Shown here in pieces: positions 15,373 through 17,728 of a DNA stretch of 32,370 nt. The notes below the pieces were generated by a model. That model made no database searches. It was not told the origin of the DNA and worked only from the letters and a program-made list of their open reading frames with translations. The DNA is from Sulfurimonas sp. Its GTDB lineage: Bacteria; Campylobacterota; Campylobacteria; Campylobacterales; Sulfurimonadaceae. Position 1 is the stretch's first letter. Every line of letters starts with the position of its first letter. The position numbers and the translations under genes are program-made. The stretch is taken from NCBI GenBank assembly GCA_027068455.1, contig JAMOSN010000079.1:1-32370 (forward strand), given 5' to 3'.

Positions 15373-15654
15373 TTAGAGTCTATAGAGGATAGAGCTTAAA
15401 ATAACGATTAAAACTTGTAAACCGATGATGATAATAAGCGGTGCAAAATCAAGCCCATTAAAATCGGTTCTTTTTATATAACGTCTTACAAAATCGTACG
15501 CTGGATTTGTAACACGGTATAAAAACTGAACTATCGGATTAAACGGATCAGGATTGACAAAGCTAAGTAGTGCAGCGATAATAATCACCCATATATATAC
15601 ATTTATAAGTGAGATAAAAATCCCACCAATCCCTTGAATAATATCTACTATCAT
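15373..15654 (-). CDS. YggT family membrane protein
   Basis: LLSFVNPDPFNPIVQFLYRVTNPAYDFVRRYI. Confidence 0.85.
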   Translation of the reverse strand: MIVDIIQGIGGIFISLINVYIWVIIIAALLSFVNPDPFNPIVQFLYRVTNPAYDFVRRYIKRTDFNGLDFAPLIIIIGLQVLIVILSSILYRL

Positions 15655-16916
15655 TTTATAATCTCCCTTATATAGTTTTTAAGATATTTATATATTTTCT
15701 CAATATCTGGACCATCAACTCTGTTTGTTAAGAGTATACGTAATGGTTGCAAAAAGTTTTCTTTGCTGAGGTCTGTTTTTTGCATGATATACTCTTCAAA
15801 AGCACTGTACTCTTCAAAATGGGGTGCATTTTGAAGTGCTGCAATGATTTTGGATGTTGCTTCTTTATAATCCTCAGGAATATCACGAGATTCAAAAATA
15901 GGTGCTATTTGCTTCTTTAACTCTTTTGTGGTGCATATTTCATCTACATATAAACGAGCTAGCTCACCTATTTCAGCATCAGCAAATCCTACATAACGGG
16001 AAAGTTCTTTGGCATCCATCAGCTTTAAATGCTCTTTATTGATTGTATTAAGTATATCAATATCAAAGTGAATAGGGGAGTTTGTAAGCATATCTATTTG
16101 AAACCATTCTTTAGCTTCATTGAGAGTAAATATCTTCTGAGGCACGTTATTTCCAATTGATATTAAATAATTTGAAATTGCTTCAGGAAGATAACCTTGT
16201 TCTAAAAGTGATGTAACACTCACATCATTTGCAAAAGAGGGGATATGTGCATAGCGTATCGTTTTATCGTATCCTAGTTGCTTGCGAATATGCTCCTGTT
16301 TTGGTGTTTGATCCAAATGTTTATCACTACGAATAATAAAGGAGATATCACTTAACATATCATCAACTGCAGATGCAAAAGTTGCTGTTGGTGTTTTGTC
16401 TCTATTCATTATAACAAAGCTATCAACTGTATCAGGTTGAAAAACAATATCACCTTTTATCGTATCATCAATCACTATCGGTTTTTCTGGACGAACTATT
16501 CGAACACTAAAAGGAGCTGTATTGTCTATCACAAGTTCAGGAGGTAAGTTGCGACAAGCATCATCATAATGGTATGTTGTATTGGCATCTTTAGCTTCTT
16601 GACGTTTTTTATCTAACCATTCATCAGAACAAAAACAACTAAACGCTTTTTTTCTATGGAGTAGATCAAGTGCCATTGCAGAGTGAAAACGTACATTTTG
16701 ACTCTGATAAACTACATGAGAGTATTCAATACCAAAAAGAGCCAAAATATCTAAAATCTCTTGATCTTTACCTTCAACATTTTTCTCTTTTTGTATATCT
16801 TCAATACGTACTATGATATCTTCGTTATGTTGTTTAGCTGCAAGATAGTTTAAAAGAGCGATACGTAAATCTTCAAGAGAGATATCACCAGTAGGGCTTG
16901 GAGCAAATCTTAACAT
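15651..16916 (-). CDS. Glutamyl-tRNA synthetase-like protein lacking HIGH and KMSKS signatures
   Basis: Class Ic GluRS fold (LRFAPSPTGD...; DSFVIMNRDKTPTATFASAVDDM; TPKQ; YAHIP) but HIGH is replaced by ISLEDLR and the KMSKR loop is missing. Confidence 0.88.
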   Translation of the reverse strand: MLRFAPSPTGDISLEDLRIALLNYLAAKQHNEDIIVRIEDIQKEKNVEGKDQEILDILALFGIEYSHVVYQSQNVRFHSAMALDLLHRKKAFSCFCSDEWLDKKRQEAKDANTTYHYDDACRNLPPELVIDNTAPFSVRIVRPEKPIVIDDTIKGDIVFQPDTVDSFVIMNRDKTPTATFASAVDDMLSDISFIIRSDKHLDQTPKQEHIRKQLGYDKTIRYAHIPSFANDVSVTSLLEQGYLPEAISNYLISIGNNVPQKIFTLNEAKEWFQIDMLTNSPIHFDIDILNTINKEHLKLMDAKELSRYVGFADAEIGELARLYVDEICTTKELKKQIAPIFESRDIPEDYKEATSKIIAALQNAPHFEEYSAFEEYIMQKTDLSKENFLQPLRILLTNRVDGPDIEKIYKYLKNYIREIIK

Positions 16917-17176: not shown

Positions 17177-17728
17177 TTAGTTTTGGCTATAAAAATTTCT
17201 TAATGCACGAATAATGACTGCATTTTTAGAGATAGACTCAGCTTTTGCATTGTCATTTACTGTCTCATAAAGATCTAATGGTAAAGAGATAGAGAATGTT
17301 TTTGTTTCAATTTTTTTCTTTTTAGCAACCATTGAAACAACATTACCTAAAAGCTCGATGATTTTTTTCGTATCAATAGGTTTTTGGATAAAGCTGTTAA
17401 CACCAACCTCAATAGATTCAGAGATTTTTTCAATATCATTACTTGCAGAGATAACAATAATGATTTGATTAGGATTGATTTGGCGAATTTTACGAGAAAG
17501 CTCAATACCATCCATACCTTCCATAATAATGTCAACAAAAACAACATCTGGTTTTTTCTCTTCATAAATTTTCAATGCACTCTCTCCATCAAAACAAGAG
17601 TCAACATTAGAAAAAAAGTTTTTAAATGTTGAACTTAAAAGCTCATTTGTAACTTTTTCATCTTCAACAACCATAGCTGTCAGTTTTTTCGTTTGTTCCG
17701 TTAATTGAATTAAATCCATATTACTCAT
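17177..17728 (-). CDS. Response regulator: REC domain fused to ribbon-helix-helix-like output domain
   Basis: REC residues VVEDE, VVFVDIIMEGMDG, VISAS, FIQKP; C-terminal KTFSISLPLDLYETVNDNAKAESISKNAVIIRALRNFY is RHH-like. Confidence 0.8.
   Translation of the reverse strand: MSNMDLIQLTEQTKKLTAMVVEDEKVTNELLSSTFKNFFSNVDSCFDGESALKIYEEKKPDVVFVDIIMEGMDGIELSRKIRQINPNQIIIVISASNDIEKISESIEVGVNSFIQKPIDTKKIIELLGNVVSMVAKKKKIETKTFSISLPLDLYETVNDNAKAESISKNAVIIRALRNFYSQN

Follow-up and report, generated by a model that had tools for sequence, protein, structure and literature searches.

Repeated loss of catalytic motifs in a second glutamyl-tRNA synthetase of Campylobacterota that carry glutaminyl-tRNA synthetase

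The gltX2 locus and its lesions

The stretch of DNA analyzed here, referred to as the window, comprises 32,370 nucleotides of a Sulfurimonas sp. contig and carries a gltX2 ortholog at 15651..16916 (the window features described here are all on the minus strand). The reading frame is open across all 421 codons and encodes a catalytically dead GluRS2. Its stop codon (TGA) overlaps the start codon (ATG) of yggT in an ATGA junction at 15651..15654; yggT itself (15373..15654; PF02325) encodes a YGGT family membrane protein and is probably translationally coupled to gltX2. A response regulator lies upstream (17177..17728), and the same gene precedes the intact gltX2 of locus L008, indicating that the gltX2 locus is ancestral. 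The last 57 residues of this regulator (KTFSISLPLDLYETVNDNAKAESISKNAVIIRALRNFYSQN...) have no Pfam match but resemble a DNA-binding segment of the ribbon-helix-helix type, which would be an unusual fusion partner for a receiver.

In profile searches the gltX2 product matches PF00749 (E=1e-48) and reaches 310 bits against TIGR00464, the GluRS model with a curated cut-off of 289.95, in agreement with the GluRS fold proposed in a first-pass annotation of the letters alone. Scores fall below the cut-offs of TIGR03838 (GluQ-RS; 136.5 bits against 276.7) and TIGR00440 (GlnRS; 21.7 bits against 425.8). The C-terminal domain is present, with a weak match to PF19269. GluQ-RS (YadB) shares homology in the GluRS-like catalytic core; however, it is short, active, and without an anticodon-binding domain, whereas the window protein keeps a C-terminal domain but lacks an active site. 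On the GltX2 tree the window gene groups inside its own genus with full support. Tree placement, the ATGA–yggT junction, and the upstream response regulator of the L008 type identify it as the ortholog of Campylobacterota GltX2, the tRNA-Gln-type GluRS, at the ancestral locus; the earlier suggestion of a repurposed copy of one of two GltX paralogs is thus narrowed by tree and synteny to the second, tRNA-Gln-directed GluRS. AlphaFold2, run on the single window sequence, returned a pLDDT of 38, and a contig scan with the single window protein matched only two distant Patescibacteria loci.

We compared the window protein with orthologs from genomes without glnS, such as L008, in an alignment of 152 orthologs. 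The former HIGH motif (residues 11–18; 16863..16886) reads DISLEDLR in place of DMHIGNLR, with SLED where HIGN is expected; neither the HIGH signature of GluRS nor its HxGN form, the GluRS2 trait as defined in PMC3927822, is present. RIEDTD has become RIEDIQ (residues 37–42; 16791..16808) and RGEDH has become RSDKH (residues 196–200; 16317..16331). Between YAHLP and GYLP, the intact loop IILNDEGKKMSKRDNASSVKWMFEE has shrunk to SFANDVSVTSLLEQ (residues 227–240, 14 aa versus 25; 16197..16238), and the KMSKS signature is gone with the deleted loop. Further positions that are invariant among intact orthologs have changed: R116 to H, Y178 to A, N179 to T, and, in the anticodon domain, K384-G385-K386 to S-K-E (15759..15767). 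The last of these lies seven residues before the PLR arginine, which we take to be the counterpart of the anticodon-contacting arginine in Thermus GluRS. R3, E39, D40, and R196 are still present.

The four motif changes (HIGH, RIEDTD, RGEDH, and the KMSKS loop) had been noticed in the first-pass annotation; they are real and recur in relatives. Because the nearest of these (G126, G076, and G063; 64–68% identical) share the loop deletion and a partial loss of HIGH, a sequencing error, named at that stage as one finding that could undo the reading, is a very unlikely source of the window lesions. That the altered motifs still support synthetase activity, or another use of ATP, is extremely improbable: R3, E39, D40, and R196 would suit such an enzyme, but the window protein has lost the histidine and glycine of HIGH, the glycine of RGEDH, Y178/N179, and all of the KMSKS loop, and across motif-lost copies the formerly invariant polar columns are now as variable as the rest.

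Companion synthetases and the glnS association

The source genome (G000, genus g1, family f1; 1.54 Mb, 119 contigs, 76% complete) carries two further genes of this family. One is a canonical GltX1 with HIGG and KKLSKR on contig C46, which answers the earlier advice to search the genome for a canonical gltX. The other, on contig C39, is GlnRS, represented by its first 253 codons only and cut at a contig end of the 76%-complete assembly. HIGH and KMSKS are kept in 81/81 GltX1 sequences, and HIGH and VMSKR in all 53 full or near-full GlnRS sequences, where HIGH takes the form PPEPNG-[FY]-PHIGHAK.

GluRS2 is the tRNA(Gln) enzyme of the epsilon group, a specificity described in PMC3927822. This 2014 survey (BMC Evol Biol 2014, PMC3927822) reported that GluRS2 and GlnRS co-occur in epsilon-proteobacteria, gave HxGN as the epsilon GluRS2 motif, and suggested that GlnRS is possibly non-functional since GluRS2 is always present; it also names Mesorhizobium among alpha-proteobacteria that have both GluRS2 and GlnRS. 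In our genomes, too, GltX1 and GltX2 occur together with a GlnRS that is patchy and horizontally acquired; here, however, it is GltX2 that is dead, and GlnRS has its motifs intact. The intact motifs in all 53 GlnRS sequences speak against a non-functional GlnRS, and, contrary to the survey, we argue that the non-functional partner would be GltX2 and the working enzyme the acquired GlnRS. The literature searched, which comprised open-access papers only, contained no report of GltX2 motif loss. Compared with epsilon-proteobacterial GluRS2, the tRNA-Gln-specific GltX2 found for example in Helicobacter pylori, the window protein has the orthologous locus, the two-domain sequence, the position before yggT, and the recognition by TIGR00464 in common, but it lacks HxGN and KMSKS, has lost basic tRNA-facing residues, and has GlnRS beside it in the genome.

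The 152 aligned orthologs were drawn from the family and the order, and glnS presence was scored for each genome. Of the 92 genomes without glnS, 87 have HIGH and KMSKS both intact, versus 6 of the 60 with it (Fisher p=3e-28); in closed genomes (one or two contigs, n=37) the counts are 19/19 and 0/18. We examined relatedness on single-gene trees. A GltX2 tree built without the motif columns contains 14 independent supported pairs that differ in glnS, with a mean of 11.1 showing loss in the same way and 0.1 in the opposite way. The independent GltX1 tree gives 15 supported pairs, with 13.1 in the same way, 0 opposite, and the rest tied (median p=2.4e-4), and parsimony on it counts 21 changes of the lost/intact state. 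With both trees giving this result, relatedness does not explain the association—catalytic death of GltX2 follows GlnRS acquisition repeatedly, in at least a dozen separate lineages. Motif loss is therefore not clade-wide, as the first-pass annotation had thought worth checking, but of many independent origins. That GlnRS has replaced GltX2 in evolution we regard as nearly certain.

Five motif-lost genomes have no detected glnS (G161, G163, G205, G230, and G238). No glnS start was found in these assemblies, which have 130–250 contigs and 81–97% completeness, and missing contigs are the likely reason. In G039, which has no glnS, GltX2 (L220:831-2146) is split by one frameshift beside an A-run with all motifs intact; this is probably an assembly error. 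We also considered a horizontally moving cassette of dead gltX2 and glnS and rejected it; dead copies fall within their own genera on the GltX2 tree, whereas GlnRS groups differently.

The two genes do often lie together. In many species of several genera glnS is directly beside gltX2 and divergent, and in family f20 it stands in tandem upstream; adjacency is found in G211, G219, G223, G231, G114, G126, G237, G227, G016, G034, G164, G181, and G141. GlnRS sequences from these genomes do not form a single group, and insertion of glnS next to the gene being replaced seems recurrent, perhaps through homologous recombination. The GlnRS proteins at glnS loci L056–L108 are about 750 aa long, with a C-terminal tail that is recognized by the GatB profile (GatB/YqeY type), similar to the GlnRS-YqeY fusions in NCBIfam.

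Constraint, charge, and the order of losses

The motif-lost genes stay under purifying selection. In sister pairs that have both lost the motifs, dN/dS is 0.10–0.32 (bootstrap upper limits at most 0.46) versus 0.03–0.12 in most intact sister pairs, these being pairwise estimates with some synonymous distances near saturation. When selection was left out of a simulation, about 7 stop codons had accumulated by 0.19 substitutions per site, and 0/500 runs ended with an intact ORF. The full-length, maintained pseudo-synthetase surmised from the window alone is borne out by the intact 421-aa frame and by these ratios. Once the motifs are lost, polar columns that used to be invariant are as free to vary as hydrophobic ones, and every column class, the variable one included, evolves slowly relative to synonymous change and below neutral rates. 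In the motif-lost set, conserved hydrophobic columns keep that character in 91% of alignment cells versus 63% for conserved basic ones; the GluRS-like cysteines of CP1 (C94, C96, and C121) are kept in at least 90%. The motif-lost set showed no conserved functional site, and the fold alone is conserved.

Net charge has shifted as well. The GltX2 median moves from -7 in intact to -16 in motif-lost sequences, and from -8 to -20 in genus g1 alone; GltX1 stands at -14 with or without glnS, making the shift specific to GltX2. The largest shifts are at the KGK of the anticodon domain, at N16/G15 at the start of the helix after HIGH, and at G197 of RGEDH. K386 has become D or E in 41 motif-lost sequences versus 1 intact one, and 28 changes are counted on the tree. 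Substrate-binding positions thus turn acidic convergently in dead GltX2. Three glnS-carrying genomes with HIGH and KMSKS still intact (G231, G236, and G189) already have the K386 change, and G156 has one at K384; from these sequences, release of tRNA appears to come early in the decay. HIGH is kept alone in 17 copies and KMSKS alone in 1, indicating that KMSKS is lost before HIGH; in motif-lost copies the KMSKS loop has gone from 25 residues to mostly 14–17, with several distinct lengths.

Copies also shorten and vanish. Shortened motif-lost copies run to 377–395 aa, and that of G037, which is without the anticodon domain, to 313 aa. Seven genomes with glnS keep yggT and have no gltX2, so some lineages can do without the protein in the long term. 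In G118, which carries glnS, a 384-aa, extremely diverged GltX2 relic overlaps yggT (L219:1746-2900); protein searching across the order failed to rank it as GltX2.

Why a dead synthetase might be kept

We propose that the ancestral GltX2 was a GluRS making Glu-tRNA(Gln) for the indirect glutamine pathway, and that charging of tRNA(Gln) passed to GlnRS once glnS was acquired. Thereafter GltX2 would have ceased to bind tRNA and to act as a catalyst, with the lysines of the anticodon domain and the KMSKS loop going early and HIGH following later. These losses were probably favored—a GltX2 still holding or mischarging tRNA(Gln) would compete with GlnRS. We infer that the tRNA(Gln) load now rests on GlnRS, that GltX2 no longer binds tRNA, and that the changes were driven by competition. 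The polypeptide has most likely been kept complete, folded, and soluble for a non-catalytic, tRNA-independent role, such as protein binding or scaffolding, that may already have been present in the ancestral GltX2. Parallel retention, full length, and constraint in all column classes favor a role of this kind; against it, the series from full length through shortening to absence of gltX2 looks like slow erosion. The full statement, replacement by GlnRS together with a folded pseudo-enzyme kept for such a role, draws from us about as much belief as doubt. We lean slightly toward doubt on the proposition that this second function is old and selected and is all that remains after the GlnRS takeover, hence the parallel pseudo-enzymes in at least a dozen lineages.

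The strongest competitor, plausible if rather doubtful, is that the dead gene is functionless and persists since yggT, and perhaps slt beyond it, needs ribosomes that finish gltX2; until yggT is released by a deletion, selection would act only to keep the product folded, soluble, and incapable of binding tRNA. Each of the 65 motif-lost genes is immediately followed by yggT, in 57 cases through ATGA, so retention is possible without function. Both the altered charge and the retained core are consistent with selection for harmless solubility, the shortened G037 copy still ends close to yggT, and yggT is kept in lineages that have dropped gltX2. However, the overlap is equally common with intact gltX2 (72/87) and is thus inherited rather than a special trait of dead genes; coupling needs only a short ORF, yet most copies exceed 400 aa; and all column classes, variable ones too, lie well below neutral rates.

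The first-pass annotation read the protein as a maintained pseudo-synthetase, which stands, and as a candidate tRNA-binding regulator, which does not fare well; the cause of the motif loss, the glnS of which a fragment lies on contig C39, was missed. A regulator or chaperone that has lost catalysis but still binds tRNA(Gln) or tRNA(Glu) for delivery or control is unlikely. It would account for the whole two-domain architecture, the kept CP1 cysteines, and some kept basic positions (R3, R18, R139, K321, and K344), but K384/K386, beside the anticodon-contacting PLR segment, turn to D or E early and in most lineages, R116, K154, R171, and the KMSKS lysines are lost, net charge becomes far more negative in GltX2 with GltX1 of the same genomes unchanged, and the G037 copy is retained without its anticodon domain. 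A scaffold role in a Gln-transamidosome was also considered and set aside: the charge loss in the anticodon domain is against it. The presence of GatCAB is uninformative here, since it is retained everywhere for Asn; GatB occurs in 144/150 genomes, and no genome has an AsnRS that passes the cut-off.

A plain recent pseudogene or assembly artefact is highly improbable. Motif-lost copies do have longer branches, and, leaving aside the polar columns that used to be invariant, constraint on them is relaxed 1.5- to 3-fold; however, retained copies have no internal stops, sister pairs with shared lesions have a dN/dS far below 1, and identical lesions occur in independent assemblies.

A precedent for the proposed non-catalytic role exists in HisZ, a pseudo-synthetase paralog that acts as a regulatory partner of HisG. 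Both HisZ and, judging from its sequence, the window protein keep a synthetase fold without aminoacylation; HisZ has a known partner, and dead GltX2 differs in having arisen many times in parallel. The Campylobacterota offer a replicated natural experiment in which a horizontally transferred substitute relieves the same essential enzyme in many lineages, and in which the order of losing tRNA binding, KMSKS, and HIGH can be followed across them. The question of further GluRS2 roles thereby becomes directly testable. If GltX2 does have a second function, moonlighting would extend to the GluRS2 proteins that are still intact in Helicobacter, Campylobacter, and their relatives.

The lesions are invisible to the standard annotation model. 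Dead GltX2 from the window and from L006, L014, L026, and L050 scores above the TIGR00464 equivalog cut-off, and automatic annotation (NCBI) consequently names these dead proteins glutamate--tRNA ligase.
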